From an uncultured Pseudomonadota bacterium (GTDB lineage: Bacteria > Pseudomonadota > Alphaproteobacteria > UBA9219): a stretch of 52,760 nucleotides of DNA. Within the stretch, counting starts at the first letter, position 1. The number at the start of each line of letters is the position of its first letter. The position numbers and the translations under genes are program-made. Location: the NCBI GenBank assembly GCA_903920205.1, contig CAIXLI010000205.1:1-52760 (forward strand), in the 5' to 3' direction. The notes under the pieces were generated by a model that was not told the DNA's origin, did no database searches, and saw only the letters and a list, made by a program, of their open reading frames with translations. Of this stretch, positions 8,935 through 36,464 are shown piece after piece.

Positions 8935-10626
8935 ATGATCGAAAGCAAAAAAATTCGCACTGCCTCGTTCCTTTTGGCCTGCGCCGTTACCTCCTTGTGC
9001 AACGCGGCGCGTGCGGAACAAATACCCTCCACAGCACAGCCTGGGGTTCTTTTGCGTAGTTTAGAGAAACAAAGTATCGAGCCGACTCTTTCGGCACAAG
9101 ACATTATCGTCATACAAAAAGGCAAAAACGAGGCTGGCGATCTAAGCGAGGATAAAGCGTTTACGTTGCAAAGCCTTACCCTAGAAGGATCGACCCTTTA
9201 CGGCCAAGAAGCCGTCAACGATGTCATTCGGGATTATGTTGGCAAACAGACTTCGTTTGCCGATCTGAATGCTATCGGGGCTCGTTTAACGGCGATGTAT
9301 CGCAACGATGGCTATATTTTCTCGCGCGTGATTGTTCCTCCGCAAAAGATTAAGGACGGCGTCGTTCATCTGAAAGCTCTTGAAGGCCGCGTAACAGACG
9401 TCAAAATCGTCGGCACCTATAAAGATGACAACCACCTCATCAAGGATATGGCCGAAAAAATAAAAGCCTCCGTCCCCACTAACGAAAAAGACATCGAACG
9501 GTACCTTCTTCTTATCAACGATCTTCCCGGCATCAAGGCGCGCGGCGTCATAAGCCCCTCGCAAACGCCCGGCGGCGGAGAACTTACGATCACGATTGAG
9601 CAAAAAGATCTTGAAGGATCTGTCGGCATAGACAATCGCGGGTCAAGAAACCTCGGCCCCTTTCAAGCCACGGCGATAGCCGCTGCTAATTCGCTTTTTG
9701 GCATTCACGACAGGACTACTGTTCGCGTTATTTCCACCACCGACGCGAAAGAGCTTATGTATGGAGAAATAACCCACGAAGAACAGTTGGGAACCGAAGG
9801 AGCCAATGTCGTCTTCCGCTATGCAAGGACACGGTCGAGACCCGGCGATAACCTTGCCTATCTTGACATCAAGGGCAACAGCGACAATTTCGATGCGGAA
9901 ACAATGTATCCCCTGCTCCGCAGCCGCCACACCAACGTCAATTTATTGGCTGGATTTAACTCTTTGGGATCGGAATCAAGCATTCTTGGCATAAAAACCG
10001 TCGAGGATCGCGTCAGAAGCCTGCGCATCGGAAGCCATGTTGATTTTACGGATTCTTGGGCGGGCATAACCCAAGTTGAAGCCAAAGTCATCAAGGGCCT
10101 CTCTATCTTCGACGCGACGCCTGACGGCGCGGGACGGTCGAACATCAACGGCAAGCATGACTTTCTGCGCACCGATGTATCGGCGACGCGCGTGCAGGAT
10201 CTTTGGGACAAATTTTCGCTTCAGGTATCGGGACACGGTCAATACACTCAAGACCCTTTGCTCTCCTCCGAACAATTCTTGATCGGCGGACAAGGGTTTG
10301 GTCGCGCTTATGATTCAGGGGAGTTGACCGGAGACCAAGGCATCGTCGGCGCGGTCGAGCTGCGTTATGGCGAAGAAACAGGTAACCGCTATATCCCCGC
10401 CTATCAATTCTTTACCTACTACGATTCAGGCAGGGTTTGGAACCTTAACTCTGTCGTAGGGCAAGCGGGAACGGATGCCATCAGTTCAGCAGGTGGCGGC
10501 GTGAGGTTTAACCTCGACTACGACATCTCTGGATCGTTTGAACTCGACAAGCCCCTAACCCGTCAGGTTTCTGCGGAAGGCAACAAGGATACGAGAATCT
10601 TCTTCTCGCTCTTGAAGAGATTCTAA
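8935..10626 (+). CDS. TpsB outer-membrane transporter (ShlB/FhaC/HecB family)
   Basis: The 563-residue outer-membrane partner that recognises the TPS domain of TpsA via periplasmic POTRA domains and exports it through a 16-strand barrel. It has a signal peptide (about residues 1-27, ending NAARAEQ), a POTRA_2-type domain (about 75-155, FTLQSLTLEGSTLYG to ALEGRVTDV), a second POTRA (about 155-225) and a barrel from about 225 to the end. The chain ends in a terminal phenylalanine (LLKRF), the usual signature for BAM-dependent insertion. The start is supported by AAGGG 12 bases upstream. It is divergent from tpsA; the two are often adjacent and co-oriented in other bacteria, so this arrangement allows separate control. 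Confidence 0.92.
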   Translation: MIESKKIRTASFLLACAVTSLCNAARAEQIPSTAQPGVLLRSLEKQSIEPTLSAQDIIVIQKGKNEAGDLSEDKAFTLQSLTLEGSTLYGQEAVNDVIRDYVGKQTSFADLNAIGARLTAMYRNDGYIFSRVIVPPQKIKDGVVHLKALEGRVTDVKIVGTYKDDNHLIKDMAEKIKASVPTNEKDIERYLLLINDLPGIKARGVISPSQTPGGGELTITIEQKDLEGSVGIDNRGSRNLGPFQATAIAAANSLFGIHDRTTVRVISTTDAKELMYGEITHEEQLGTEGANVVFRYARTRSRPGDNLAYLDIKGNSDNFDAETMYPLLRSRHTNVNLLAGFNSLGSESSILGIKTVEDRVRSLRIGSHVDFTDSWAGITQVEAKVIKGLSIFDATPDGAGRSNINGKHDFLRTDVSATRVQDLWDKFSLQVSGHGQYTQDPLLSSEQFLIGGQGFGRAYDSGELTGDQGIVGAVELRYGEETGNRYIPAYQFFTYYDSGRVWNLNSVVGQAGTDAISSAGGGVRFNLDYDISGSFELDKPLTRQVSAEGNKDTRIFFSLLKRF

Positions 10627-17521: not shown

Positions 17522-20434
17522 ATGCCCCCTCCTCAGGCCCCGCACACTGCCATGTCTTTAAACGAAAATTCTTTCCTTTACAGCGCCAATGCGGATTTTA
17601 TCGCCGAATTGTTTCAGCGTTACGCGGCGGATCCCGCCTCGGTCGATGAAAGCTGGCGCGTTTTCTTTGGCGGGTTACATCAGGACGCGCGAACGGCTTT
17701 GACCGAGATCACAGGGGCTAGTTGGGCTCCGGCGAAATCCATAAAGATCATTTCGAACGAAAACAAAGGGGGGGAGAAACAAGCGCAGGCTCCTGTCGCC
17801 CTCCCTGCGTCTCAACCCGCCTTACAGCAAGCCATCCTCGACAGCATTCGCGCCATCATGTTGATCCGTGTTCATCGTGTGCGCGGACATATGCAAGCGC
17901 AGCTTGATCCTTTGGCGATGACGCCCCAAGCGCCGCATCCCGAATTGACACCCCAAAACTACGGCTTTACCGAAGCCGACTATGACCGTCCCATTTTCCT
18001 CGACGGTTCGCTGGGTTTCACACATGCTACGCTACGCGAGATTATGGCGCGGTTACAGGCAACCTATTGCGGGCATATCGGCGTCGAATTTATGCATATG
18101 CAGGATCCTGCGGAAAAAGCGTGGATTCAAGCGCAGATGGAAGCTTCGGAAAACAAAACGGTTTATGCGGCGGAAACAAAACGCCACTTGCTGGAACGCC
18201 TGACGGCGGCCGAGGGTTTTGAAAAATTCCTCGCCACAAAATTCGTCGCAGTCAAACGCTTCGGTTTGGAAGGCGGCGAGGCGATGATTCCCGCGCTGGA
18301 AGCCTCGATTGAGAGAGGCGTATCGCTGGGACTGCGCGAAGTCGTCCTTGGTATGGCGCATCGCGGGCGGTTAAGCGTGTTGACCAACGTGCTAGGGAAA
18401 CCCTTTACGGCGATGCTGGCGGAATTCCGAGGCATCTCGCCTTTCCCCGACAGCTTCCACGGCTCCAGCGACGTAAAATATCACCTAGGCGCTTCGACAA
18501 ACCGCGATTTTGCGGGGCAGAACATTCATCTGACCATGAACGCCAACCCTTCGCATCTGGAATGGGTCGATCCCGTCGTCGTCGGACGCGCGCGCGCCAA
18601 ACAACAACAACGCTCCGCCTCGCGCACACCAAGCGCCGAGGCACAGCGTCAAGTGATGGCCTTGCTGATCCACGGCGATGCCGCCTTTGCCGGACAAGGC
18701 ATTGTAGGGGAAACGCTGACGCTTTCCGCGTTGAAAGGCTATGGAACCGGCGGCACGATTCATTTCGTCATCAACAATCAGGTCGGCTTCACGACCGCGC
18801 CGAATTATTCGCGTTCGGGAATTTATTGCACCGACATCGCCAAAAGCATCCAAGCCCCCATCTTCCACGTCAACGGCGATGATTTAGAAGCGGTTGTGCA
18901 TGTCTGCGAACTTGCCGCAGAATTCCGACAGAAATTCAGCCGCGACGCCGTGATCGACATGGTTTGCTATCGCCGCCACGGACACAATGAAAGCGACGAA
19001 CCGGCCTTCACCCAGCCAATCATGTACCGCAAGATCAAAGACACGCCGACAACGCGAGAGCTTTACGCCGCACAACTAATCAACGAAGGTGTCGTCACCC
19101 AAGCCGAAGCCGACGCGATCAATCATAATTTTCTGGCAGTCATGGAGCAAGCCTATCAAGACTCCGCTGTCTATAAACCCGGCAAAGCCGATTGGCTGGA
19201 AGGCAAATGGCATGGCTTCGAAGCCCCGCCAACCGAGGAGCCCATCGGCAAAACAGGCGTCGCGCTCGATACACTACGCGAAGTCGGCTACGCGCTGGCG
19301 CGAGTGCCGCAGGATTTTCACCTCAATCCCAAAATTGCCAAACAACTGGACGCCAAGCGCGAGATGATCGAAACTGGCGAAGGTATCGATTGGGCGACGG
19401 CGGAGGCTTTAGCGTTCGGCACGTTGTTGCTTGAAGGCACACCGGTGCGCCTGTCGGGGCAAGATTGCGGGCGCGGAACCTTTTCACAACGCCATTCTTT
19501 GTTGATTGATCAGGAAGACGAGCATCGCTTTGTGCCCCTTAACAGCATTCGCCCCTCCATGCCCGCGACCTTTAGCGCGCACGACAGCCCGTTATCCGAA
19601 GCGGCGGTTATGGGCTTTGATTACGGATTTTCCTTGGCGGAGCCGAACACGCTGACCTGCTGGGAAGGTCAATTCGGCGACTTTGCCAATACGGCGCAAG
19701 TCCTTGTCGATCAGTTTATTTCGTCGGCGGAAACCAAATGGCTGCGCATGTCGGGACTGACTTTACTTTTGCCGCATGGGTATGAAGGGCAAGGGGCGGA
19801 GCATTCCTCGGCACGGCTTGAACGTTTTCTGCAACTCTGCGCCGAAGACAATATGCAGGTAGCGAATTGCTCGACGCCCGCGAATTACTTTCACATCCTG
19901 CGCCGCCAAATGCGCCGCAACTATCGCAAGCCGCTGATCCTGATGACGCCGAAATCTTTGCTGCGTCATAAACTATGCGTGTCGCCGCTTTCTGCGATGG
20001 ATGAAAACTCGACCTTCCTTAGCGTCATTCCCGACAGCGCGACGCATGTGGTCGCAGATGAACTTATTCGTCGAGTTATTCTTTGCAGCGGAAAAATTTC
20101 TTATGATTTGATCCCGGCGAGAGAAGAAAAAAAGATCGACGATGTCGCCATCATCCGTTTAGAACAATTCTATCCTTTCCCCCAAAAATATCTTGCCGTG
20201 GAATTAGCGCGTTACGTCAACGCCACGGAAGTTATTTGGTGTCAGGAAGAGCCTGAGAACATGGGCGCATGGCATTTTCTCGACCGCCGCATCGAACAAA
20301 CCCTCTCGACCGTCAATGGTCGCGTCGCACGCCCCACCTATAAAGGACGCCCACCTTCAGCCGCCACCGCGACAGGCTCCGCAAAGCGGCATTCAAAGGA
20401 ACAATTAGATATTATAGATCAAATACTTGCATGA
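17522..20434 (+). CDS. sucA: 2-oxoglutarate dehydrogenase E1 component
   Basis: The thiamine-diphosphate-dependent E1 subunit that decarboxylates 2-oxoglutarate in the TCA cycle. The 970-residue length is usual. Visible landmarks are the N-terminal YSANADFIAELFQRY segment, LGMAHRGRLSVLTNVLGKP (about 280), the ThDP/metal region HGDAAFAGQGIVGETL (about 380), VNGDDLEAVVHV (about 455) and RRHGHNESDEPAFTQP (about 480), and the transketolase-type C-terminal half. The start may instead be the ATG at 17552 (MSLNENSF). Unusually, sucB/odhB and lpd do not follow; the next genes are unrelated, so the complex's other subunits must be encoded elsewhere. Confidence 0.96.
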   Translation: MPPPQAPHTAMSLNENSFLYSANADFIAELFQRYAADPASVDESWRVFFGGLHQDARTALTEITGASWAPAKSIKIISNENKGGEKQAQAPVALPASQPALQQAILDSIRAIMLIRVHRVRGHMQAQLDPLAMTPQAPHPELTPQNYGFTEADYDRPIFLDGSLGFTHATLREIMARLQATYCGHIGVEFMHMQDPAEKAWIQAQMEASENKTVYAAETKRHLLERLTAAEGFEKFLATKFVAVKRFGLEGGEAMIPALEASIERGVSLGLREVVLGMAHRGRLSVLTNVLGKPFTAMLAEFRGISPFPDSFHGSSDVKYHLGASTNRDFAGQNIHLTMNANPSHLEWVDPVVVGRARAKQQQRSASRTPSAEAQRQVMALLIHGDAAFAGQGIVGETLTLSALKGYGTGGTIHFVINNQVGFTTAPNYSRSGIYCTDIAKSIQAPIFHVNGDDLEAVVHVCELAAEFRQKFSRDAVIDMVCYRRHGHNESDEPAFTQPIMYRKIKDTPTTRELYAAQLINEGVVTQAEADAINHNFLAVMEQAYQDSAVYKPGKADWLEGKWHGFEAPPTEEPIGKTGVALDTLREVGYALARVPQDFHLNPKIAKQLDAKREMIETGEGIDWATAEALAFGTLLLEGTPVRLSGQDCGRGTFSQRHSLLIDQEDEHRFVPLNSIRPSMPATFSAHDSPLSEAAVMGFDYGFSLAEPNTLTCWEGQFGDFANTAQVLVDQFISSAETKWLRMSGLTLLLPHGYEGQGAEHSSARLERFLQLCAEDNMQVANCSTPANYFHILRRQMRRNYRKPLILMTPKSLLRHKLCVSPLSAMDENSTFLSVIPDSATHVVADELIRRVILCSGKISYDLIPAREEKKIDDVAIIRLEQFYPFPQKYLAVELARYVNATEVIWCQEEPENMGAWHFLDRRIEQTLSTVNGRVARPTYKGRPPSAATATGSAKRHSKEQLDIIDQILA

Positions 20435-20505
20435 AATTAATTGCCCCTTAACCTATAATGGATACAATTGCCTCATAGTCGATAAATAATTATAGGGTGT
20501 CCGTC

Positions 20506-20898
20506 ATGGCAAATCCAGAAAACTATACAAACGACACGACAAACGCTCAGGATCAAACTGAAGAAAATCGTCATAATGAGGATAGGACACTCAATGCTAT
20601 GGAAGCTCTTGCGGTTGTCGCCCTCGCGCCAGACCCCATAAAGTTGAGACACCATAGACATTTTGGGCATCATGGACGTCATGGCCATAACAATATAAGC
20701 GCAAAACATCATAATGGGGGAAAAAATGAGGCTCGCACACTCCGTGAACTTAAAGCAAATCACGCCCTGCATACAACGGACAAGATAGCACCACAAAAAG
20801 CGAGAATGGCCTCGAAGAATAAGTACACAAGCAACAACGCAGGCAAACGTTTCAATAAACAGAATCTTTTCGACGGCGGATTTAAGCCGGGCTTGTAG
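20506..20898 (+). CDS. small basic, histidine-rich protein of unknown function
   Basis: A 130-residue hydrophilic protein with no signal peptide or membrane helix. A His-rich stretch (RHHRHFGHHGRHGHN, about residues 50-64) precedes a Lys/Asn-rich C-terminus ending FDGGFKPGL. I recognise no domain. A TATAAT at 20454-20459 is a candidate -10 box for this gene and the four that follow; the gap after sucA is only 71 bases. Candidate roles (metal binding, chaperone or partner for the downstream enzymes) are guesses from context. Confidence 0.55.
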   Translation: MANPENYTNDTTNAQDQTEENRHNEDRTLNAMEALAVVALAPDPIKLRHHRHFGHHGRHGHNNISAKHHNGGKNEARTLRELKANHALHTTDKIAPQKARMASKNKYTSNNAGKRFNKQNLFDGGFKPGL

Positions 20899-20916
20899 GA
20901 CAAAGGTTTTTTGGTC

Positions 20917-21984
20917 ATGGCAAGTAACATCAGACATATGTCGCGCGACACCATCGGTATTTTGCAAGAGCATTTGCACGTTGGCAAGGATAAGGTCCTA
21001 GGTCGCAAAACCCTTAAGGCCCTACATAAACTTTCCTACGCCGCACAACAAAAACTTATTCGTCATGTCAAAAAAGAGGCGTTGAAAAGAGGCGCGTTAG
21101 CAGCTACTTCGAAAATGGTCAGCGATGCAAGCACGCCCAATCAAAGCATGTGGAACGATCTTCCTCCTCAAGAACAGAAACGCATTCTGGAGACGACACA
21201 AAAAGAATTCAAAATATCGAGCCTTTCGCCTACGGTTGGAGAGGATATTGAACGTTCAGGCGGAAGCAGACTTTCATCCCTTGATATGAGCCCTTCCGAT
21301 ACGAACGATGCTGGAAATTTCTTCGCTAGGTCGCAGGAACCCGCCAGCGCCCCCAATAGTTTGGCGGCGCTGAAAGCATGCTCGAAGATTGATAATACGG
21401 GATCGTTTTTAGATCTCACAAATTCCAAAACCAAGAAAGTTTATCGTCAAATTAAAGCTCATGGCGGACCAACTGGATGGTGCGCCGAATGGACGAGAAA
21501 GCTGTTAGATTCTTGCGGTGTTGTTATACGCAAAGAGGGAAAGATCCTTGGCAGAGCCCGCGACTACACCAAGGACATCATGAACAAACACGGGTTTTCA
21601 CAGCTCCAAGCAGGGATTAGCGGAGAGAAGATCAGTCTTACGGAGTTAAAAAAGCTCTCAGAAAATATGGTCGGTGACATCAATCGCACGATTGTGCTGG
21701 TGTTCACGCCAAAAGACAAAAGATCTCAAGAAGCTGGACACATTTGTTTGGTCGATCCAAAATCAGGAAAATCCGTCTCCGATTGGGACCAAAAAAGCCT
21801 AACTGGGCTGAAAAATCCAGGGAAATTCACTTGTTCGGCTTATATTAAGGCCGACCCCGAAACGGATTATAGTCCAAGCATGGAAAACACAGCGAAGGCG
21901 GAAGATAAATCACTGGGAACGAAGAACTACACGAAAGAAGTTGCCGGCTTTAAGAGAAGCCTCATCGGGGCTTCCCCCGTCTAG
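20917..21984 (+). CDS. CHAP/NlpC-like cysteine amidase candidate with long basic N-terminus
   Basis: A 355-residue protein without signal peptide. The first about 100 residues are basic and helical, with two copies of a motif of the form L/W-x2-L-x4-Q-x2-hh (LHKLSYAAQQKLI, WNDLPPQEQKRIL). A Ser/Thr-rich linker follows, then a likely catalytic domain from about 155 with GPTGWCAEWTRKLLDSCG (Cys189) and EAGHICLVD (His275), in the Cys-then-His order of CHAP and NlpC/P60 peptidoglycan amidases. The third catalytic residue is not obvious. It starts 18 bases after the His-rich gene and lies in the same operon. The family assignment is by pattern, not by close likeness. Confidence 0.55.
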   Translation: MASNIRHMSRDTIGILQEHLHVGKDKVLGRKTLKALHKLSYAAQQKLIRHVKKEALKRGALAATSKMVSDASTPNQSMWNDLPPQEQKRILETTQKEFKISSLSPTVGEDIERSGGSRLSSLDMSPSDTNDAGNFFARSQEPASAPNSLAALKACSKIDNTGSFLDLTNSKTKKVYRQIKAHGGPTGWCAEWTRKLLDSCGVVIRKEGKILGRARDYTKDIMNKHGFSQLQAGISGEKISLTELKKLSENMVGDINRTIVLVFTPKDKRSQEAGHICLVDPKSGKSVSDWDQKSLTGLKNPGKFTCSAYIKADPETDYSPSMENTAKAEDKSLGTKNYTKEVAGFKRSLIGASPV

Positions 21985-22017
21985 GCATTATAGCGATAGG
22001 ATAGGAGGCATTGTGTC

Positions 22018-23034
22018 ATGAAACGCTATCATAACCACCTGAAACTACCTAGAAATCATGCTGATATTGAATATATTCAGCGACACATGAAGGGGTATCA
22101 TGGCGATTTTGACGGTATTGCAACCCTCAAAAACGGGGGGGAAAGCGAGACCCAAAAGGTTTGGAGACATCTGTCCAGAAGGAAACAAAGAAAGCTTCTC
22201 TTAGGTGCTATAGGCCATAGAGGAAAGCCCTCTCTTGCCGCTCATAACACAGCAAGCGTGGCACCACGACCCGATCAAACACTTCGCCATCATAACCGTA
22301 GGAACCGCGGTGCCTTAAAGAAGGTTAGTGTTGCGATAGTCCCTGCTCCCGATAGTGAGGAAGCGTGCGAGCTGAATCTGAATAAGTTCCACAGCAAGGT
22401 AGTGAAAGCATGCTCCGTTCGGTACGATGAGCACTTTATAAACAGAGGCGTTAAAAGCCCAACGGCCTATGGTGGCCATTGTGCGGGTGTTATGTGCGGA
22501 GTCGCCAGCACCCTTCTTGGAAAAACTATACCGCTTACAAACGCCAAGGATCTCCCTGACGTCCTACCATCGTTTGGTTTTAAGAATTTGGGTATAACCG
22601 TTTCCAAAAAAGGTGAATATCTGAACAAGGATGGAACTCCCTATAAGCCTGAGCCAGGGGATATCGCCATTATAAACAAAAAAGGCTCTCCGTTTGGTCA
22701 TGCGGCGATGAGAGAAAAAGACGGCTGGTTTTCGGATGCCGTTCAGGGAGAGAGACTGTGGCCCTACTCGGCCCCGGAAGATCCACATGCCTGCGCATTC
22801 TACCGCAACGATAAGATTAATCATATGTTCGTTAGCAGACCAGACCCCGCGAAAGATCCACAATGGATGGCTAAGGCAGTAGCACCGGAAGTGGGTTCTA
22901 AAAATTTTCTGCAATCCCAGAGCAGTTCTCCCGGTCTTACGAGCTTTGTCGATAAGCAAGCAGTCACAAACAAGGGGACAGGCAAAATCTCCATGCTGGG
23001 GTTACAGACCGCACCCAATTCTTTGGTTCCATAA
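22018..23034 (+). CDS. CHAP/amidase-like cysteine hydrolase candidate
   Basis: A 338-residue protein with no signal peptide. The N-terminal 110 residues are basic and include WRHLSRRKQRKLLL, resembling the helical motif of the preceding gene product. The catalytic-looking domain has AYGGHCAGVMCGVAS (Cys155), KPEPGDIAIINKKGS, and GHAAMREKDGWFSD (His228, Asp240), a layout typical of CHAP and T6SS-amidase-like peptidoglycan hydrolases. The C-terminal 60 residues are Ser/Gln-rich and probably unstructured. ATG is preceded by AGGAGG nine bases upstream, a strong ribosome site. Confidence 0.6.
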   Translation: MKRYHNHLKLPRNHADIEYIQRHMKGYHGDFDGIATLKNGGESETQKVWRHLSRRKQRKLLLGAIGHRGKPSLAAHNTASVAPRPDQTLRHHNRRNRGALKKVSVAIVPAPDSEEACELNLNKFHSKVVKACSVRYDEHFINRGVKSPTAYGGHCAGVMCGVASTLLGKTIPLTNAKDLPDVLPSFGFKNLGITVSKKGEYLNKDGTPYKPEPGDIAIINKKGSPFGHAAMREKDGWFSDAVQGERLWPYSAPEDPHACAFYRNDKINHMFVSRPDPAKDPQWMAKAVAPEVGSKNFLQSQSSSPGLTSFVDKQAVTNKGTGKISMLGLQTAPNSLVP

Positions 23035-23118
23035 GGAAAACGAACATGCTGCGTCCGACTTGTTCCTTTTGCTTAAAACGTCAAGGGAGCATGCCGACAA
23101 GAGATGGGGTTAGATTCT

Positions 23119-23904
23119 ATGCCTGAATACACCAAACTTCTCCCTGAACAAGGGGCTTTGGATTCGCAGTCGGCGAGGGCTGGAAGAGGATCGTTGAGAA
23201 CAGAAACGGCTTTGGCTCAGTCTGTAAGCGATTTCTCAGGCGGAAGCAGGTTTCGTTTTGAAGATCAACGGGAGGCTCTGGCAATTCTTGAGGTGGATAA
23301 AGATTATCACAAAAAACATGAACTTGATCTTTCCGTTAGCAATTCGGATTCCGGCAAGCGCGTGTCTTTAAAGAACGACAGTGCCAGCATCATTCTTGAT
23401 GCGCCCGAGATGCCTCATGGCAAGGTTGCGGTATTCGACCCCAATACCAAGACGCTTACTTTACCCGATGGCCGAAAATTCAAAATGGGCTCGGGCAAAG
23501 GGTTCGACGCGAAAACACCCGACGGCGGGGTTATCCCTCCCGGCACATGGCTCGTCGCCAAGGCTGCCAAGCATGATTTCAAGCTTGTTAACGGCATCGA
23601 TACATGTGACGCCTTCTATCTTTCCCCCACAAAGGATGTCGAACTCAACGGGCGCGACGGATTCTATATCCATCACCCTCATTCACCGAATCTGAGCAGC
23701 CTCGGCTGCCCTGTTGCGGATGACAAATGTATAGCCGCGTTGAAAGTTGCGCGGGAAAAGGACATCTTCACTTCGCTCCGCGTTCTGCCTTACGACCCTA
23801 AACTGGCGGCAACACACGGCAAGAAAGTAGAAAAAGTTGTCAAGACCAAACAAAAAGCAAAAAAGAATATTCAGGTCGCCATGACCGCGCCCGTCATAGA
23901 ATAA
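23119..23904 (+). CDS. L,D-transpeptidase-like protein (DUF2778/Tlde1-type signature)
   Basis: A 261-residue protein. After a Ser/Gly-rich N-terminus, a beta-rich domain (VAVFDPNTKTLTLPDGRKF, GVIPPGTWLV) leads into GFYIHHPHSPNLSSLGCPV, where a His cluster is followed by S-L-G-C (Cys197). This is the L,D-transpeptidase active-site order (His ... SxGC) and is closest to the DUF2778/Tlde1 form, in which SLGC replaces SHGC. Such enzymes cut or exchange peptidoglycan cross-links. There is no signal peptide, unlike housekeeping L,D-transpeptidases. The ATG at 23119 is preferred (MPE start as in the next gene); 23104 is the alternative. Confidence 0.6.
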   Translation: MPEYTKLLPEQGALDSQSARAGRGSLRTETALAQSVSDFSGGSRFRFEDQREALAILEVDKDYHKKHELDLSVSNSDSGKRVSLKNDSASIILDAPEMPHGKVAVFDPNTKTLTLPDGRKFKMGSGKGFDAKTPDGGVIPPGTWLVAKAAKHDFKLVNGIDTCDAFYLSPTKDVELNGRDGFYIHHPHSPNLSSLGCPVADDKCIAALKVAREKDIFTSLRVLPYDPKLAATHGKKVEKVVKTKQKAKKNIQVAMTAPVIE

Positions 23905-23938
23905 ACGATCATTAAAACAGTATATTTGGATTATTATT

Positions 23939-24883
23939 ATGCCAGAGGTATTAGATCCACCGCTCCCTTCAACCCCCGCTAATCCACGGGCAGCGTTGCG
24001 CACGCTTAAAAACGAAAATGCCAAGGTATCTTCTGCCGATCTTCCTCAGCCTGATCCTTCGGGAGGCACAACTGTCGCTCCCGAAAATCGTCAAGCCGTT
24101 ATTACCTCCTTCGTAACACCCGCGACAACAGAGTCTAATAATTTTCCTGATACTCAGACTGAAAACCGTCCTTTTCCAAACCCTGCAAGTCTTAAAAAAG
24201 ATCAGGCGGCAGCATCCACAGAAGGAGGGCTTTGGCAGTCTCATATCGGCTCTGAGGGATTCAGATTCACCCGGGCAAACCCCGTAAATTATAAGTGGGG
24301 CGGTAAAGAAAATATGGGGCAGTGGCTAGAAAAATTGCTTAATGGGGAGGGGAGCAAGCTGTCGGTCAATAAGCTTGATTGCTCTGGTTTCACAAAGACG
24401 CTCACTCTTGCCGTCATGCAGAAGATGAATGACCTTAGTGGCCGCCAAATTTACGATGTGCGCGCTATAGCCAAGCTTTTTCCCGATACAGCAGAAGGGC
24501 AATTCAAGGCTATTGCCGGAAAAGTGAAAGCGTGTTCCACGGAAGAAATAAAATCGGGAAACATTCCCGCAGGGGCGTTAGTCTTCCTTAAAAATAAAGC
24601 TCAACGCATTTTCCATACCGCAGCCGTAGTCACAGGACCAGACGGAGAGAAATTAATCGCCGAAAGCGGAAGCTCAAAAGGCACCACGTTAACTCCCTTG
24701 AGAAAATGGGTTTCACGGGAAATGCATGTTGGCAACAAAGTTCTCGCCGTAGACGCCCATAATCTTGCTACCCTCCCCCCTCCTGATTTGACAAGCACGG
24801 CAAACAAAGCCGCGACTAAAGCTCCGACGCAGATTGCTATGAACACGCGGATGCCGAAAGCTTTTCCTGGCTTTACTGTTTGA
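23939..24883 (+). CDS. NlpC/P60-family peptidoglycan hydrolase candidate
   Basis: A 314-residue protein. Residues 1-95 are Pro/Ser/Thr-rich and disordered. The NlpC/P60 domain follows: YKWGGKENMGQW (the family's YxWGG entry), NKLDCSGFTKTL (catalytic Cys148), IPAGALVFLKNK, and RIFHTAAVVTGPDG (His226). Members hydrolyse the gamma-D-Glu-meso-DAP bond in stem peptides. No signal peptide is present, so another export route would be needed. The tail ends QIAMNTRMPKAFPGFTV, similar in composition to the tail of the preceding gene product (QVAMTAPVIE). It is last in the cassette, 108 bp before hpnB. Confidence 0.7.
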   Translation: MPEVLDPPLPSTPANPRAALRTLKNENAKVSSADLPQPDPSGGTTVAPENRQAVITSFVTPATTESNNFPDTQTENRPFPNPASLKKDQAAASTEGGLWQSHIGSEGFRFTRANPVNYKWGGKENMGQWLEKLLNGEGSKLSVNKLDCSGFTKTLTLAVMQKMNDLSGRQIYDVRAIAKLFPDTAEGQFKAIAGKVKACSTEEIKSGNIPAGALVFLKNKAQRIFHTAAVVTGPDGEKLIAESGSSKGTTLTPLRKWVSREMHVGNKVLAVDAHNLATLPPPDLTSTANKAATKAPTQIAMNTRMPKAFPGFTV

Positions 24884-24991: not shown

Positions 24992-26122
24992 ATGGTTGTT
25001 TTCTCCCTCCTTGGCACACTCGCCCTTGCCGCTTGGCTTTACCTTGCTCTGGAGCGTGGTTTTTTTTGGATTCCTTTGCTGCCGCAGGAATCTTTTGAAC
25101 CAACGGTGTTGCCCTCCGTCGCAATTGTCGTTCCTGCACGGAACGAGGCAAAAGTCCTGCCGCGCTCCCTGCCCTCGCTTTTGGCTCAGAACTATGCGGG
25201 CGCATGGCGCGTTATTTTGGTGGACGACCACAGCCGAGACGGAACCAGCGACGTCGCTCAAAGAATCGCTGCGGATTTAAGCAAATCCGACCGCCTTACC
25301 ATCATCGCCGCTCCCGATTTGCCCGAAGGATGGAGCGGCAAGGTCGCCGCGATGAATGCTGGGGCAAAAGCCAGCGACGAAGACTTTGTCCTCTTTACCG
25401 ACGCCGACATCCTTCATGCGCCGTATAGCCTGAAAAAACTGGTGGCGCGCGCCGAAGAGAAAAAACTCGACCTGACCTCGCGCATGGTCAAATTAAACTG
25501 CGTCAGTTTTGCGGAACAGCTTCTTATTCCTGCCTTCGTTTTCTTTTTCGCCATGCTGTTTCCCTTCTCCCTCTCTAACGCACCTCGTTCGCATGTTGCG
25601 GCTGCGGCAGGAGGCGTCATGCTTGTGCGGCGTTCTATCCTGAATAAAATAGGAGGCTTGGCCTGCATCCGATCCGCTCTCATCGACGATTGCAGCCTTG
25701 CCAAAGAGATTAAGCACGCAGGCGGCATAACGGAGCTAACCCTCACCCGAGATATCCAAAGCCTGCGCCACTACCCCCATATAGGCGATGTCTGGCAGAT
25801 GGTGACGCGGACGGCCTACACCCAATTGCGTCATTCTCCGCTTTTGCTGGCGGGAACGGTAGCAGGGTTGGTAATCGTATATCTTGCTCCGCCGCTGCTC
25901 TTTATTTTTGCGCCGACTGTGACGGCATTGGCGGCAGGATTTCTGGCGGAGTTGCTGATGACCGCGATTTATATGCCTATGGTGAGATTTTATGGCTTAC
26001 CAAGAGCTTGGGCGTTGACGTTACCTGTGGCGGCGTTGGTGTATGCTGCCGCTACGCTAAACTCGGCACGACTTTATCATCAAGGAAAAGGTGGTCAGTG
26101 GAAAGGTCGCGCGCAGGCATGA
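24992..26122 (+). CDS. hpnB: Hopanoid-associated glycosyltransferase HpnB
   Basis: A 376-residue family 2 glycosyltransferase found in hopanoid loci. An N-terminal membrane helix (MVVFSLLGTLALAAWLYLAL) precedes the GT-A domain with VAIVVPARNEAKVLP, ILVDDHSRDGTSD, and FTDADILHAP (DxD-like metal site). IDDCSLAKEIK supplies the second acidic site, and several hydrophobic helices follow from about residue 170. It is the first gene of a five-gene run with ATGA overlaps. The sugar and acceptor are not established by sequence. Confidence 0.85.
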   Translation: MVVFSLLGTLALAAWLYLALERGFFWIPLLPQESFEPTVLPSVAIVVPARNEAKVLPRSLPSLLAQNYAGAWRVILVDDHSRDGTSDVAQRIAADLSKSDRLTIIAAPDLPEGWSGKVAAMNAGAKASDEDFVLFTDADILHAPYSLKKLVARAEEKKLDLTSRMVKLNCVSFAEQLLIPAFVFFFAMLFPFSLSNAPRSHVAAAAGGVMLVRRSILNKIGGLACIRSALIDDCSLAKEIKHAGGITELTLTRDIQSLRHYPHIGDVWQMVTRTAYTQLRHSPLLLAGTVAGLVIVYLAPPLLFIFAPTVTALAAGFLAELLMTAIYMPMVRFYGLPRAWALTLPVAALVYAAATLNSARLYHQGKGGQWKGRAQA

Positions 26123-29594: not shown

Positions 29595-30125
29595 TCAATG
29601 CGCCGTTTCTTCGTTGCTGGACGCGCCGCGCGTGCGTTTACTAACGTTTTGATAGGCGACGCGGGCGTGATCGACGCAGTAAGGCAAGCCTTCATGCGCG
29701 GTACAGCCGCAGAAACGGAAATCGGGAGAACGCGGATCGCCGACGGGCCAACGGCAATGACGGTCGCCAGCCTTGGTCACCACGATGCCTTCACTGCGCA
29801 CCGCACCGCCGATACCTTCCAGCGAACGGAAAATGTCCTTCGCCGTGGGAATGACTCGCATGGTGGTCGCGGGAGCCGGAACGACAGGCAAGGGTCGGAG
29901 CATAACGCGCTTGCGGCTCGACTTGATCGCCCCCATACCTCCCGTCGCACGTTGCAATCCGGTCCCAGGAGTGTCTGCGGATTTTTGAACCGACAACTTC
30001 AGGCGATGTGCCTTGCCGATGACCGCGTTGCGGGTCAAACCACCGATGTGTTCGGCAATTTCGCTGGCGCTGTGATGCCCCCACATATCCTTGAGCATTT
30101 GGATTTTTTGCTCGGTCCATGTCAT
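29595..30125 (-). CDS. gcrA: Cell-cycle regulator GcrA
   Basis: A 176-residue alphaproteobacterial transcription regulator that binds RNA polymerase sigma70 and promoters carrying CcrM-methylated GANTC. The N-terminal DNA-binding segment is clear: MTWTEQKIQMLKDMW, SASEIAEHIGG and LTRNAVIGKAHRLKL (residues 1-45). The C-terminal sigma-binding region contains DRHCRWPVGDPRSPDFRFCG and a second Cys set (GLPYCVDHARVAY). AGGAG lies ten bases before the ATG. The gene's 5' region is unusually rich in GANTC and DnaA-box sequences. Confidence 0.95.
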   Translation of the reverse strand: MTWTEQKIQMLKDMWGHHSASEIAEHIGGLTRNAVIGKAHRLKLSVQKSADTPGTGLQRATGGMGAIKSSRKRVMLRPLPVVPAPATTMRVIPTAKDIFRSLEGIGGAVRSEGIVVTKAGDRHCRWPVGDPRSPDFRFCGCTAHEGLPYCVDHARVAYQNVSKRTRGASSNEETAH

Positions 30126-30524
30126 GGTTCTTAAACTCCTGATGGTTTGTTGGCGGGAAGGGCTTACCCAAAATCAGTACGATTCCGAAACAAGCCCCCA
30201 AAACCTTAGATCGTTAACCACTAGATTTTGTGGCTTACAAGCAAACCTCATACCACGGAGAGCGAATCGATTCTAGCAAACACTGTATCTTGTGGATGAA
30301 TTGTGGGTAGCAACTAAATATGGATTCTTAACCTTATGAATCGTAAACACTTTATTAACTTATTCACAGATATGGGCTTTCCGGATTCAGCGAAAAACAG
30401 GTAAAAGCGTCAAACTTATCCACAACTTTCTTTTGTCGATTCCTGTTTATGTCCGTCAAAGAAAATGCGATAGGAGCCTTCCGCTAACCAATTTTGGGTA
30501 GCGGGGGAGAAATTTAGAAAAACC
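30126..30524. promoter_or_regulatory. gcrA control region or candidate replication origin
   Basis: A 399-bp gene-free gap between divergent gcrA and an HD-domain gene. It holds two sites matching the DnaA consensus TTATNCACA (30360-30368 and 30416-30424), one on the other strand with a single mismatch (30291-30299), seven GANTC sites (30181, 30264, 30269, 30323, 30338, 30384, 30438) and two TTAACC CtrA half-sites (30214, 30328). The middle (30300-30370) is AT-rich. In Caulobacter, DnaA activates and CtrA represses gcrA, so a promoter role is expected; the same set of elements also marks origins in this class. Confidence 0.6.
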
Positions 30525-31439
30525 ATGCTTCAATCCTTGCCCTTGTCAGAACTGGATGCCGCGTTGTCTATGCTGCCTGAAGTTATTGCGATTGCGATCT
30601 TGCAGTCCGGCATTCAGGAGTATGGCGGTGATTTCGGTTGGCTTACCGACGAGCGCGTTATCAAGGGGGTGCTTTACGCACATGAGGCACATGGAGGAAA
30701 GACGCGCAAACGCGGCAATCGCCTGCGTTTAATTCATGAAGTCTTTTGCGCTCATCACATCCATAACAATCAAGAACTTCAAACGTGGATTAATCGGCAA
30801 CAACATGTTACCCCTGCCCTTGCGGTTTTTGGCATGGTCGTTCACGATTGCGTTGAGAATTTCCGCGATTGCGCCAAAGAGGCAAACACCCCGTTCGATG
30901 AAAATGCCGTTATCAAAAAACTGGCCGCATTGTGGGGGGAGCCGTCCACTTTCGTTTATATTCATGAGAAAGGCATCCGGTTTATGACCGATGCCGCAGA
31001 TTTACGCGGCAAAAACAGGATCAATGCCCAAATAGAAAAGGCCTTTGATAAAGACCGATTCTTATGCATTGACATGCTGCAACAGTGTTGGCGCATGTAT
31101 GACAAATTCAGCAATGTTTGCTTGGATGCTATGGAGTGTAGAGACCAACTTTTCTCGCGGAAAAACGCCGCAAACTGTTATACAAAAGCCCATAAAAAAC
31201 GCTTTGTTTTAGAATATCCGGCGGCAAAGTTGATCGAGAGGGAGTATTGGGAAGCTATGGAGGTGTTGGAAGAAAGGGCTTGGAGAGGCATTCCAAGAAC
31301 TTTTCACGAAAGCGTGTTGTTTTCTTTCCGTAAGAGTGTTCGCAAGGCACTTGCCCGTAGTATTGATGTGCAGAGAGCCCTATTAAAAATGACCCATTCA
31401 AACAAAAATGCAGCAGGCAACGAAGCCCCTATTCTCTGA
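30525..31439 (+). CDS. degenerate RelA/SpoT-type HD-domain protein
   Basis: A 304-residue soluble protein. Residues 50-135 align in layout with the RSH hydrolase domain: AHGGKTRKRGN (RSH: AHxGQxRKSG), then LIHEVFCAHHI with His71, VVHDCVEN with His107-Asp108, and a following IKKLAALWGE helix. The usual ED after HD is EN here, and the later conserved Asp of the KLADRLHNM motif is not visible (IDMLQQCWRM). (p)ppGpp hydrolysis is therefore doubtful; a binding or altered phosphohydrolase role is possible. No synthetase or TGS domain is present. Divergent from gcrA. Confidence 0.5.
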   Translation: MLQSLPLSELDAALSMLPEVIAIAILQSGIQEYGGDFGWLTDERVIKGVLYAHEAHGGKTRKRGNRLRLIHEVFCAHHIHNNQELQTWINRQQHVTPALAVFGMVVHDCVENFRDCAKEANTPFDENAVIKKLAALWGEPSTFVYIHEKGIRFMTDAADLRGKNRINAQIEKAFDKDRFLCIDMLQQCWRMYDKFSNVCLDAMECRDQLFSRKNAANCYTKAHKKRFVLEYPAAKLIEREYWEAMEVLEERAWRGIPRTFHESVLFSFRKSVRKALARSIDVQRALLKMTHSNKNAAGNEAPIL

Positions 31440-31510
31440 CATTCATCTCCGCGAATCATGCTACATAGGCGGGGTTAAGCATCCAAACTGAAAGCGTGCG
31501 CGGAAGACTC

Positions 31511-33496
31511 ATGGCCGATTTGTTTCCTACCAATAGCAAGAAAAAAGACGCGACCTATGATGCCAATGATATTGAGGTGTTGGAGGGGTTGGAGCCTGTG
31601 CGCCGCCGTCCGGGCATGTATATCGGGGGTACAGACGAGGCCGCGCTGCATCATTTGGTGGCGGAAGTACTCGATAACTCGATGGACGAGGCGGTCGCAG
31701 GTTATGCGTCTTTTATCGAGCTGGAATTGAAGCCGGACAATACGGTTCTGGTACGCGACAACGGGCGCGGGATTCCTATCGACAATCATCCCAAATATCC
31801 GGGCAAGTCGGCGCTTGAAGTTATTTTGACCACGCTACATTCCGGCGGCAAGTTTTCGAGCAAGGTTTACGAAACATCGGGCGGTTTGCACGGCGTCGGC
31901 ATCTCGGTCGTCAACGCTTTGTCCGAAGAGCTGACCGTCGAAGTCGCACGCGAAAAGCAGCTTTATGTTCAGCATTACAGCCGTGGAACGCCCCAAGGCA
32001 AGCTGAAGCATGTAGGCGCAGTCAACAAGCGCGGTACGACGGTTACATTCCGTCCTGATGTGGATATTTTCGGCTCGCGCGTGCACTTCAAACCTTCGAC
32101 TTTGTTCCGCATGGCGCGGTCGAAAGCATACCTGTTTCGCGGCGTGGAAATTCGCTGGAGCTGCGATCCTTCGCTGATTAAGGCCGACGACAAAACGCCG
32201 ACGCAAGCGGTTTTGCATTTTCCGGGTGGGCTTTCGGATTATCTGTCTTCGACGATGGATGACCGCGAAACGCTGACCAAGCAGATGTTTTCAGGCATCA
32301 CCGATTTGCCCGATAATCAGGGCAAGGTCGAGTGGGCTGTGGCATGGCCCGTGGATGGCGATGGTTTCTGTAGCTCTTATTGCAACACCGTTCCTACGCC
32401 GCAAGGCGGCACGCATGAAAGCGGGATGCGGTCGGCGTTGCTGCGTGGTCTGCGTGCCTATGGCGAATTGACGGGCAACCGCCGCGCCACAGCGATCACC
32501 GGCGACGAGGCTTTTGGCAACGCGGCTGTATTGCTGTCGCTGTTTATCAAAAACCCGCAATTTCAGGGACAGACCAAAGAAAAACTGGCGACCGCCGAGG
32601 CTTTGCGTCTGGTCGATCAGACGGTCAAGGATCACCTTGATCATTGGCTGGTCGCCGATGCCGTGGGCAGCAAGGCGTTGCTGGATCATTTGGTTTTTAA
32701 AGCCGAAGAACGCATCCGCGCTTCGCAAGCAAAAGACCTCGCCCGTAAATCCGCCACGCGCAAACTGCGTTTGCCCGGAAAACTGGCGGATTGTTCACAA
32801 AGCCAAGCGAAGGATACTGAGATTTTTCTCGTCGAAGGCGACTCGGCGGGCGGCTCCGCCAAACAGGCGCGGAGACGCGAGACACAGGCGATCCTCCCCT
32901 TGCGCGGGAAAATACTCAACGTCGCCAGCGCGACGGTGGACAAGCTGCGCGGTAATCAGGAATTGCAGGATTTGACGCAGGCTTTGGGATGCGGCGTCGG
33001 GTCGTCATTTTCACTCGATAAACTGCGGTATGAACGCGTTATCATTATGACCGACGCCGATGTGGACGGGGCGCATATCGCGTCACTATTGATGACGTTT
33101 TTCTATCGGGAAATGCCCGGGCTGATTACGGCGGGGAATGTGTATTTGGCACAGCCGCCTTTGTATCGGATTTCGCAGGGCAACAACACGCGCTATGCCC
33201 GAGACGACGCGCATAAGGAAGAATTGTTGAAGACCGTTTTCAGCAGCCGAGGTAAGATAGAAATAAGCCGATTCAAAGGCTTGGGCGAAATGATGCCGGC
33301 GCAATTGCGCGAGACGACGATGAATCCGGCGACGCGGTCTTTGCTGCGCGTTGTTATCACCAAAAACCCAGAAACAAGCCAAGATGAGATCAAGGAGACC
33401 GAGACTTTGGTCGAAAGCTTGATGGGGAGGAAAGCCGAATTGCGGTTCCAATTTATCCAAGAAAACGCCCGTTTTGCGCGGGATGTGGATATTTGA
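31511..33496 (+). CDS. parE: DNA topoisomerase IV subunit B
   Basis: The 661-residue ATPase subunit that, with ParC, decatenates daughter chromosomes. GHKL ATPase motifs are present (EVLDNSMDEA, VRDNGRGIPID, GGLHGVGISVVNALS), then the TOPRIM domain with EGDSAGGSAKQAR and MTDADVDGAHI, and the C-terminal RFKGLGEMMPAQL. ParE rather than GyrB is indicated by the short length and the immediate RYERVIIMTDADVDG context without the GyrB insert. The ATG at 31511 has GGAAG five bases upstream. parC is not in the window. Confidence 0.95.
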   Translation: MADLFPTNSKKKDATYDANDIEVLEGLEPVRRRPGMYIGGTDEAALHHLVAEVLDNSMDEAVAGYASFIELELKPDNTVLVRDNGRGIPIDNHPKYPGKSALEVILTTLHSGGKFSSKVYETSGGLHGVGISVVNALSEELTVEVAREKQLYVQHYSRGTPQGKLKHVGAVNKRGTTVTFRPDVDIFGSRVHFKPSTLFRMARSKAYLFRGVEIRWSCDPSLIKADDKTPTQAVLHFPGGLSDYLSSTMDDRETLTKQMFSGITDLPDNQGKVEWAVAWPVDGDGFCSSYCNTVPTPQGGTHESGMRSALLRGLRAYGELTGNRRATAITGDEAFGNAAVLLSLFIKNPQFQGQTKEKLATAEALRLVDQTVKDHLDHWLVADAVGSKALLDHLVFKAEERIRASQAKDLARKSATRKLRLPGKLADCSQSQAKDTEIFLVEGDSAGGSAKQARRRETQAILPLRGKILNVASATVDKLRGNQELQDLTQALGCGVGSSFSLDKLRYERVIIMTDADVDGAHIASLLMTFFYREMPGLITAGNVYLAQPPLYRISQGNNTRYARDDAHKEELLKTVFSSRGKIEISRFKGLGEMMPAQLRETTMNPATRSLLRVVITKNPETSQDEIKETETLVESLMGRKAELRFQFIQENARFARDVDI

Positions 33497-33676
33497 GAAA
33501 AAAACGGGATTTTGTGAACTGCGGCTTATTTTTTGAGGGGCTTTGATAAGGCGCAGCTGGTGAAGCGATGGGCGTTAATAAGCCGGGGCTTCAAGACGTA
33601 AGGTGCGGCTTATAAAGAATGCGATGGGGTTCCGGTTAACCATAAAGGGGCCGCGGAGGTGAAACTATTGCCGGAC

Positions 33677-33705
33677 TTGGGCGCAGAGAAACCCTGTGAT
33701 ATAAT
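33677..33705 (+). promoter_or_regulatory. sigma70-type promoter with extended -10
   Basis: TTGGGC at 33677 and a perfect TATAAT at 33700 are 17 bases apart, and TG precedes the -10 as in extended -10 promoters. It points at the hypothetical gene starting at 33759. The rest of the 262-base gap after parE shows nothing recognisable. Confidence 0.55.
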
Positions 33706-33758
33706 TTCACGCGTATTCAAAATTTTTGAAGAAAATATTTCAGATAAGGAAATTGACG

Positions 33759-34394
33759 ATGAAAAATATTTCCACAGCCAGCTCAGAAGAACTTATGCTT
33801 CAAGCACGCGGCTATTGCTCTCTCAACGCCCTTTTTCCCAAGACGACAGGCTGTGTTGTTTTTAGCGCTGAAGACGGAAAGAATAGTCTCACGAAGTTTG
33901 TCATAAACGACCAAGAACTCTATTCGCATCGAGTGCGGATAACATCTCTAGGCATAATGGATGTTCTTTTGTTTACTGATAATTTTGGAGTGGGCTTCAA
34001 AGTATTGTTTACGGAAGCAGGTCGAGAGATTACCGCTACATTCGGGAACGGAGATATAAAAAATGATGTCGTTATATTCAGTAAAGAAACGGTAGATCCA
34101 GCATTCATAAACGCTAATTTACAAACAAGATTTGATGCCGCGCATCGATATATTTTAGGAAAAATGCAGGCTTATCCAGCTGTTGTTTTGCCGTCTTCCA
34201 ATTTGTTCTCGTCTAATCTACTTGATGGGCGTCTTCGTTTATTGGAAAGGTGCTCAATTCACGCCGGTCAAATTGTTGCTTCGCAAGGAAGAGACCCTCG
34301 CTATTTTATCGCAGAGGACTATGAGTGTTTGCCTGATAAGAGGCTGATGATTAAGGCGCAAGCTAGGCACAAGCCGTTTGGTTTTGGGCTTTAA
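33759..34394 (+). CDS. hypothetical protein
   Basis: A 211-residue soluble protein, mixed alpha/beta by eye, without signal peptide, membrane helices or a motif I recognise. AAGGA eight bases upstream supports the ATG at 33759 over one at 33726. GC content is lower (about 40-45 %) than in parE, which together with its own promoter suggests an accessory gene. It converges on the MFS gene with a 19-bp gap. Confidence 0.6.
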   Translation: MKNISTASSEELMLQARGYCSLNALFPKTTGCVVFSAEDGKNSLTKFVINDQELYSHRVRITSLGIMDVLLFTDNFGVGFKVLFTEAGREITATFGNGDIKNDVVIFSKETVDPAFINANLQTRFDAAHRYILGKMQAYPAVVLPSSNLFSSNLLDGRLRLLERCSIHAGQIVASQGRDPRYFIAEDYECLPDKRLMIKAQARHKPFGFGL

Positions 34395-34413
34395 CTTCCT
34401 CCACCGTGATTTC

Positions 34414-35664
34414 TTACGAATCTATCGGTGTCAGGTGGTCGGCCTTGCGGAGGGAGGGGAAGATCTTTGCCCAGAGGACGGTGATGGCGATAGAGCCTAG
34501 GCCGCCGAAGACGGCGGAGCCGATGACGCCGAAGAAACGGGCTGCAAGGCCGCTTTCAAATTCGCCCAATTCGTTCGAGGCACTGACGAAGAGGCTGGAG
34601 ACCGCCGAGACTCGGCCGCGCATAGCATCGGGCGTGATGATCTGAACCAAGTTCTGACGCATGAAGACGGAAAAGGAATCTGCAGAGCCTGCGATGGCAA
34701 GCGCGAGCATCGACAAACCGACATTACGCGAAACGGCGAAGCCAAGCGTGGCAAGGCCATAAACCGTCACGCCTCCCAACATCCATTTTCCGGCGTGGCG
34801 TTTGATGGGCCACAGGGCAAGGCCGAGGGTTGTTAGCCCTGCTCCGACGGCAAACGCGGCGCGGAGATGTCCGAAGCCTTGGGGTCCGATATCAAGGATG
34901 TCTTTGGCATAGGCGGGAAGCAACGCCGTAACTCCGCCCAAAAGTACTGCGAAAAGATCGAGCGAGATAGCGCCCAGAACGACCTTGCTTCTCCACAAAT
35001 GAACAAGGCCTTCGCGGATGAGCGCAAGGCGGGAGATATCTTCTTTCGTTTTTTGGCGTGTGGGGAGAGGCATTTTAAGAAGAATAAACGTGGCGATGCT
35101 TGCCAGTAGATAGAGGGCGCATGAGACAGCGTTGGCGTGGGCTGGCGCTATCGCGCAGAGAGCGCCACCAAGCCACGGTCCGATGACCATGCCAGTTTGA
35201 TGCGTCAGGGTATGCCAAGCAATCGCTTTGGAAAGATCCTTCCGTGGAACTAAGGTGGGGATAATAGAAGCCGATGCGGGAGCGTTAAACGCCCGCACAA
35301 CGCCAAATAATCCCGCGACGAGGAAGATCAGAGTCATAGAAACGTGAGGCTGCAACGCCAGCGCAGTAAAAGCCGCCGCGCAAAAAGCCTGCATCAGAGT
35401 ACAGATAAGAATAATTTTGCGGCGGTTATAGCGATCCGCCGTTTCACCTGCAAAGAGCGTCAGCGCGAACATGGGCAGGAATTGCGCCAGACCGATCATG
35501 CCGACAAAAAACATGCTTTCACGTTCGTCGTGTGTTTGACGCGACAGCGTATAGACAAGCCAGCCAATCGCCACGCTTTGCATCAGGGTTGCTATGTTTG
35601 TCGTCAGGCGAGCAAGCCACATGACGGCGAAAGCGCGGTGGCGGAAAACGGAAGGAAAAAACAT
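34414..35664 (-). CDS. MFS transporter (MFS_3 / enterobactin-exporter-like)
   Basis: A 416-residue inner-membrane major facilitator with about 12 hydrophobic helices. The N-terminus (FRHRAFAVMWLARLTTNIATLMQSVAIGW) and the loop-2 motif AGETADRYNRRKIIL (GxxADRxxRR) are typical of the MFS_3 group, which includes EntS-type exporters. FNAPASASIIPTLVPRKDL lies in the helix-4/5 region. Substrate unknown. It follows ompA-like on the same strand, but a strong terminator lies between them, so it has its own promoter or depends on read-through. Confidence 0.85.
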   Translation of the reverse strand: MFFPSVFRHRAFAVMWLARLTTNIATLMQSVAIGWLVYTLSRQTHDERESMFFVGMIGLAQFLPMFALTLFAGETADRYNRRKIILICTLMQAFCAAAFTALALQPHVSMTLIFLVAGLFGVVRAFNAPASASIIPTLVPRKDLSKAIAWHTLTHQTGMVIGPWLGGALCAIAPAHANAVSCALYLLASIATFILLKMPLPTRQKTKEDISRLALIREGLVHLWRSKVVLGAISLDLFAVLLGGVTALLPAYAKDILDIGPQGFGHLRAAFAVGAGLTTLGLALWPIKRHAGKWMLGGVTVYGLATLGFAVSRNVGLSMLALAIAGSADSFSVFMRQNLVQIITPDAMRGRVSAVSSLFVSASNELGEFESGLAARFFGVIGSAVFGGLGSIAITVLWAKIFPSLRKADHLTPIDS

Positions 35665-35685
35665 GAAACCTGCGGCAAAGAAAAA

Positions 35686-35718
35686 TCAGGCCCGACCGAA
35701 AGTTTCGGTCGGGCCTGA
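35686..35718 (-). terminator. Rho-independent terminator of the OmpA-family gene
   Basis: A 14-bp perfect stem (TCAGGCCCGACCGA with its complement, short loop). Read on the minus strand it is followed by TTTTTCTTT, as expected for transcription leaving the gene at 35740-36297. Confidence 0.9.
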
Positions 35719-35739
35719 AAAGAGGTATCGAAGAAAAGC

Positions 35740-36297: not shown

Positions 36298-36464
36298 TTT
36301 TTCTCTCGTTTTTTCGTTGAAAGGGGGAAGAATGTTATCCACAACGAGAGTTACTATAGCGATTCCATAGTGTTACATCAATACCTAATCAATTACTTTG
36401 ACTCGCCCCCTGCCCTTCGATAGGGTTTGGCACGTTTTCACGCCTCTTTACCACTTATTCCAGC

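Follow-up and report, generated by a model that had tools for sequence, protein, structure and literature searches.

A variable cassette of leaderless, predicted peptidoglycan enzymes 3' of sucA as a candidate effector set in an alphaproteobacterial order with a Dot/Icm-like type IVB secretion system

The class A type IV secretion system (T4SS) of Xanthomonas citri delivers a cocktail of peptidoglycan hydrolases (PMC6536674), and the main task of its immunity proteins is to shield the cell from effectors of its own making (PMC10933484). Among type IVB secretion systems (T4BSSs), most of those described deliver into eukaryotes, and bacterial killing has been demonstrated for the Kib system of Pseudomonas putida IsoF (PMC9519443). 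Micavibrio aeruginosavorus ARL-13 was reported to lack type III and type IV secretion (PMC3189940). Here we analyze a five-gene cassette (g1-g5 in 5'->3' order) in a 52,760-nucleotide window, the whole stretch of DNA studied, from the draft genome (2.32 Mb, 96 % complete) of an uncultured alphaproteobacterium; this genome is labeled G000, those of its relatives G003-G030, and fetched loci bear L numbers. The cassette occupies positions 20506-24883 on one strand, is flanked by sucA and a gene for an HpnB-like glycosyltransferase, and codes for predicted cell-wall enzymes that lack signal peptides. We propose that it represents a set of co-regulated peptidoglycan effectors delivered by a T4BSS against neighboring or prey bacteria, a reading whose chances of being right or wrong we hold to be evenly poised.

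That several leaderless peptidoglycan hydrolases act together as one cocktail is already known from the X. citri X-Tfes. Like the cassette, the X-Tfe sets of the Xanthomonas and Stenotrophomonas T4SSs (PMC6536674, PMC10933484) combine leaderless hydrolases of several folds, namely glycohydrolases, lytic transglycosylases and peptidoglycan peptidases including NlpC/P60 members, in contact-dependent killing by type IV secretion. In contrast, the X-T4SS is a class A system with VirB4, an XVIPCD signal and lipoprotein immunity proteins, whereas G000 has a predicted class B system, lacks VirB4 and shows no immunity gene adjacent to the cassette; further, no common signal domain was found in the candidates, XVIPCD itself not having been specifically searched for. 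Kib shares with our system the type IVB class and is a bacterial killer; however, it is a recent island with a single effector-immunity pair inside it (PMC9519443), whereas here T4BSS genes occur in nearly the whole order and variable cassettes at other sites carry the candidate effectors. The Dot/Icm systems of Legionella and Coxiella resemble the one studied here in the neighboring dotH-dotG-dotF genes (as in Legionella); the latter system differs in a shorter DotG, a very divergent DotO-like ATPase and wall enzymes as candidate effectors. Finally, g3 and its relatives share the NlpC/P60-type amidase family and the catalytic motifs with Tae3 (PDB 4hz9), an effector of the type VI secretion system (T6SS), unlike which they have long disordered tails, no Tai3-like partner and several hydrolases per operon, in a genome without a T6SS sheath gene. 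We regard the cassette as a probable new form of antibacterial effector set for type IV secretion.

A Pfam scan of the cassette recognized a single family: g5 is a member of NlpC/P60 (PF00877; E 6.5e-6, 26.5 bits against a cut-off of 23) and hence a predicted peptidase, with relatives in G015, G009 and G030. The CHAP match of g3 fell below threshold and g2 alone had no convincing PDB or Pfam match, so that the folds other than that of g5 became recognizable only when relatives were brought in. The key relative is G005, an alphaproteobacterial metagenome-assembled genome (JAMFSS01) from another species of the same genus, which carries two copies of a g3 relative. Aligned with g2 and g3, these display common C-A, K-D, G-F, G-D, G-H and S-D-x-x-Q columns that include the catalytic Cys and His. 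A profile of the four sequences had Tae3 (4hz9), the T6SS amidase effector, as its sole match in the PDB (E 1.5e-8), and one G005 relative by itself reached the same structure (E 9e-9) with its CA, AKD, GDV, GH and SD..Q motifs aligned. The AlphaFold model of g3 has a usable core only (mean predicted local distance difference test score, pLDDT, of 50, with block means of 84-90 around residues 181-220); its top Foldseek hits are again Tae3 (probability 1.00), with a VIA Z of 8.3-8.5 in addition, while the g2 model is unusable (pLDDT 40). By motifs, and in the case of g3 also by fold, g2 and g3 are predicted Tae3-family, NlpC/P60-type (papain-like) amidases. The fourth enzyme, g4, keeps H190 and S199-x-G201-C202 in alignment with its relatives and shares 30-35 % identity with a G010 protein that retains the SxGC motif, whose gene adjoins ftsA (assigned by eye). 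This relative contains PG_binding_1 (E 6e-12) and a YkuD match below the cut-off (21.3 against 23.4 bits). The Pfam scan returned neither YkuD nor Tlde1 (DUF2778) for g4 itself, and its profile had no match in the PDB; its likeness to the Tlde1 type was judged by eye. We accordingly describe g4 as a predicted L,D-transpeptidase-like protein.

No signal peptide or transmembrane segment was found in the cassette proteins (best 17-residue hydrophobicity within the first ~50 residues <=1.26), and a hidden N-terminal leader can be dismissed because stops upstream of the starts permit <=13 additional residues. The gaps g1/g2, g2/g3, g3/g4 and g4/g5 measure 18, 33, 69 and 34 bp and hence leave no space for additional genes. 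Codon usage speaks for g2-g5 being coding in the frames given in Table 1, where g4 might alternatively start at an in-frame ATG at 23119; g1 is doubtful as a gene, since its own antisense frame matches it in codon score. The sequence-only reading of this DNA, which had delimited five same-strand open reading frames (ORFs) without signal peptides, thus holds with that reservation on g1. The catalytic residues it had picked out are likewise borne out, C189/H275 of g2, C155/H228/D240 of g3 and C148/H226 of g5 being invariant in alignments with relatives, and the g3 model resembles the papain-like amidases that it had led one to expect. Its by-eye estimate of GC content was about 45 % against 55-60 % in sucA; we measured 47-50 % for g2-g5 and 45 % for g1, against 55 % for sucA and hpnB.

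The spot 3' of sucA turns out to be variable within the genus, being occupied by alternative leaderless hydrolase-like genes or by none, which is a new finding. We located sucA in 11 of the 24 genomes of the family and read the DNA 3' of it in nine relatives. In G005, four leaderless genes lie between sucA and sucB, namely a Tae3-like pair and a pair that bears SLT-type 'SRGLMQ' motifs; in G011 the spot is taken by a single leaderless gene, which is BTLCP-like (match below threshold), and in G009 by one NlpC-type gene with a hydrophobic N-terminal segment. Four further genomes (G008, G003, G015 and G012) show a gene-free spacer of ~40-75 bp, and G013 and G014 small unrelated genes. G012 is without both cassette and DotH, albeit as a single case. 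The gene following the hotspot is usually sucB in the relatives, as against the HpnB-like gene in G000. Comparable genes also occur outside the hotspot, as a leaderless phage-type lysozyme gene with an NlpC gene in G015 and, in another family, as an NlpC gene flanked in G030 by a pair of leaderless genes that are related to each other and have no Pfam match.

Several side observations concern these loci. The paralogous flanking genes of G030 (L114, 661-3167) carry an E-x-GS-x-G...NR motif that looks, by eye, SleB-type hydrolase-like. The N- and C-terminal tails of candidate effectors in G005 (L025, 3134-4766) are extremely rich in His (13-15 % overall, with a run of 10 in one), and metal binding or pH-dependent unfolding might play a part. 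Two adjoining leaderless genes of G015 with disordered termini and no assigned family (L034, 13739-15172) are possibly non-enzymatic effectors. A possible second hotspot lies beside Tim44-like/secB genes (L110, 747-980; L109, 2271-2639), where G000 and G010 have differing small leaderless ORFs behind CtrA-type sites. As for sucA, it was undetected in 13 of the 24 family genomes, several of them 98-100 % complete, and the tricarboxylic acid cycle may be open there.

CtrA is known to bind the consensus TTAA-N7-TTAA(C). All four sucA-linked leaderless starts (that of g1, those of the Tae3-like pair in G005 and that of the G011 gene) are preceded, ~60-70 bp upstream, by AATTAA-N7-TTAACC, which is then followed by a -10-like hexamer. 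A looser TTAA-N7-TTAA stands at -83 of the lysozyme/NlpC pair of G015, and the G009 gene with the hydrophobic N-terminus has no such motif upstream. Taken alone, the single site in the window is not beyond chance; the promoter case hence rests on recurrence across cassettes. Family-wide, there were 32 motif matches against 6 for a reversed-pattern control, among them sites before the flagellar genes flgBC-fliE, phaR and a tandem pair of DotB/TraJ/PilT-type ATPase genes in several genera. Across the 294 genes of the fetched loci, the strict site was confined to cassette starts, to genes derived from the motif search and to one bactofilin-like gene. The sharing of a CtrA-consensus promoter element between cassette starts and flagellar and DotB/PilT-like ATPase genes is a further new finding; CtrA itself is the predicted regulator. 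Elsewhere in the window, a site of the form TTAA-N7-TTAACC (8640-8656) lies near the shared upstream region of a divergent two-partner secretion (TPS) pair, which comprises a 1473-aa exoprotein that carries a TPS domain and eight MBG_2 repeats (4293-8714, - strand) and a ShlB/FhaC transporter (8935-10626, + strand).

G000, like most genomes of the order, also encodes a candidate delivery system. DotH/IcmK (PF12293) is found in 29 of the 33 genomes of the order, with an E-value of 2.2e-72 in G000, where the genes behind it code for a DotG/IcmE match (NF033900, E 3.7e-52, which falls short of the curated cut-off for full-length proteins, this DotG being much shorter than the model) and for a DotF/IcmG-like protein (NF038218, E 3.1e-6). 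The order icmK-icmE-icmG is that of Legionella. Housekeeping genes surround the locus, dnaA-like upstream and secA downstream (annotated by eye), a setting that suits vertical inheritance rather than a plasmid. A very divergent, DotO-like ATPase gene (997-998 aa) follows phaR in G005 and G011, with a weak TraC match only and no match in the PDB. We recognize, as another new finding, a predicted Dot/Icm-like T4BSS that appears to be nearly order-wide. In contrast, we rejected a T6SS in this genome, since the sheath protein TssC/VipB (PF05943) had no match in G000 while the control was positive, and likewise a class A T4SS, VirB4 (PF03135) being absent from G000, G005, G009 and G011 and present, among genus members, only in G007.

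Briefly, we envisage the following mode of action. The g2-g5 proteins would be made in the cytoplasm without Sec or Tat signals, and the chromosomal Dot/Icm-like T4BSS would deliver them straight into the envelope of neighboring or prey bacteria. In the target wall, the g2 and g3 amidases, the g5 endopeptidase and the L,D-transpeptidase-like g4 could then attack different bonds. The CtrA-type promoter would switch the set on at the same time as motility and some of the secretion ATPases, and gene content at the hotspot 3' of sucA would turn over fast, as in effector repertoires. Injected effectors appear to be the simplest account of leaderless wall enzymes with several predicted bond specificities, which are rapidly exchanged at one site behind a common promoter element in genomes with T4BSS genes. 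It is conceivable, though we lean somewhat against it, that the whole order uses its inherited T4BSS as a weapon or predation tool, loaded from exchangeable multi-enzyme peptidoglycan-hydrolase cassettes (Tae3, L,D-transpeptidase, NlpC, transglycosylase and lysozyme types) that have no immunity gene alongside and are expressed in step with motility through CtrA-type sites.

Several observations weigh against delivery by the T4BSS. The main discord is the want of an immunity gene in the cassette, unlike the X-Tfe/X-Tfi and P. putida pairs: no Tai3-type gene stands beside g2 and g3, and no ORF of the cassette bears a leader. The T4BSS genes and the cassette are not physically linked, and the tandem T2SSE-family ATPases behind CtrA-type sites obtain better scores against PilT and TraJ than against DotB, which makes the co-regulation link to the T4BSS proper an indirect one. 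The G010 and G030 genes have no CtrA-type motif upstream. As single-sequence queries g2 and g3 did not reach Tae3, and their placement in that family accordingly rests on their relatives. Lastly, no clear common C-terminal tail motif or recognizable translocation signal was seen in the candidate effectors, and we rejected a common C-terminal signal on that ground; nor do we claim a common N-terminal targeting domain for g2, g3 and the G010 and G011 proteins, given that only g2 versus G011 stood clearly above shuffles (z 4.7).

The CtrA-type promoter at the cassettes would suit a self-lysis module under CtrA, used for instance to release gene transfer agents or cell content, in which the enzymes would reach the wall via a holin or membrane damage. 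The gene transfer agents of Rhodobacter are under CtrA control, and the leaderless lysozyme, NlpC and SLT types are endolysin-like. However, one lysis event needs neither several enzymes at once nor high turnover, relatives are missing from the viral and phage collections, and no holin-like or phage structural gene was seen beside the cassettes, gene transfer agent genes not having been searched for; we regard self-lysis as unlikely. Quite unlikely, in our estimation, is a T4BSS set aimed at eukaryotes such as protists, with the papain-like folds acting on host substrates or on bacterial walls in vacuoles. Delivery into eukaryotes is what most described T4BSSs do (PMC9519443), and host association would also fit the genome sizes of 1.1-3.1 Mb and the failure to detect sucA in roughly half the family's genomes; yet the enzyme types are wall-specific (PG_binding_1 with YkuD, lysozyme, SLT, Tae3), and G000 retains hopanoid genes and a size of 2.3 Mb.

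We see only a slight chance that the products are cargo of a contractile system, of the T6SS or extracellular contractile injection system (eCIS) type, that escaped notice in the draft genome. Tae3, the closest match of g2 and g3, is a T6SS effector and g4 is Tlde1-like by eye, but against this stand the missing TssC/VipB in a 96 % complete genome and the lack of PAAR, Hcp or VgrG genes in the flanking genes that were scanned, no search having been aimed at eCIS genes. An equally slight chance attaches to the view that the cassette is a relic of lysin genes gained by horizontal transfer and now has no function: its lower GC, atypical codon use and patchy distribution would agree with this, whereas the intact frames and catalytic residues, the tight operon spacing and the conservation of the promoter element in separate cassettes speak against it. 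Returning to injected wall effectors, the sequence-only reading had offered a delivered murein-cutting set, by predation, contractile injection or type IV secretion, or an internal remodeling module. Remodeling is unlikely because the proteins are cytoplasmic without leaders; of the delivery routes, the contractile one loses ground with the missing TssC/VipB and the class A T4SS is absent here by the lack of VirB4, whereas type IV secretion is strengthened by the T4BSS and the common CtrA-type motif. Its statement that immunity and secretion genes are lacking remains true of the cassette and does not extend to the genome, which encodes DotH, DotG and DotF. We thus favor a delivered set and, as its route, specifically type IVB, to which we give roughly even chances.

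A phage or prophage origin was also considered and rejected. In PHROG, g1, g4 and g5 had no match and g2 and g3 one sub-threshold match each; IMG/VR held no relatives and phage genomes none of g3; and the flanking genes scanned included neither holin nor phage structural genes, the context that the sequence-only reading had named as decisive against it. A plasmid search with a Tae3-like relative returned three Salmonella NlpC/P60 proteins (38 % over one third of the query), and one with g4 returned none. Further along the window, a gyrB-family gene lies at 31496-33496, and GC skew shifts from ~0 to +0.2 beyond it (30000-50000), which may mark a replication-related boundary, e.g., an origin.

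Table 1. The cassette and its borders in the window.
Feature	Position	Strand	Remarks
sucA (2-oxoglutarate dehydrogenase E1)	17522..20434	+	constant 5' border of the hotspot
CtrA-type site AATTAA-TTGCCCC-TTAACC	20435..20453	+	begins 71 bp before the g1 ATG
-10-like TACAAT	20463-20468	+	3' of the CtrA-type site
g1	20506..20898	+	130 aa, basic, contains His, probably disordered; gene status uncertain; no family match
g2	20917..21984	+	355 aa, predicted leaderless Tae3/CHAP-like amidase, Cys189/His275/Asp289; N-terminal segment helical
g3	22018..23034	+	338 aa, predicted leaderless Tae3/CHAP-like amidase, Cys155/His228/Asp240
g4	23104..23904	+	266 aa, predicted leaderless L,D-transpeptidase-like (YkuD/Tlde1-like), His190...Cys202
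g5	23939..24883	+	314 aa, leaderless NlpC/P60 family, predicted peptidase, Cys148/His226
HpnB-like (hopanoid-type) glycosyltransferase	24992..26122	+	3' border in G000

T4BSSs have long been regarded as serving only against eukaryotes. If the cassette products are indeed T4BSS cargo, they would constitute a first candidate T4BSS effector repertoire of wall enzymes, and the question would arise of how cells survive without adjacent immunity genes. The CtrA-type site and the sucA hotspot would then serve as guides to further effectors, and the antibacterial T4BSS, so far a matter of one recent island, would become a trait of nearly a whole order.

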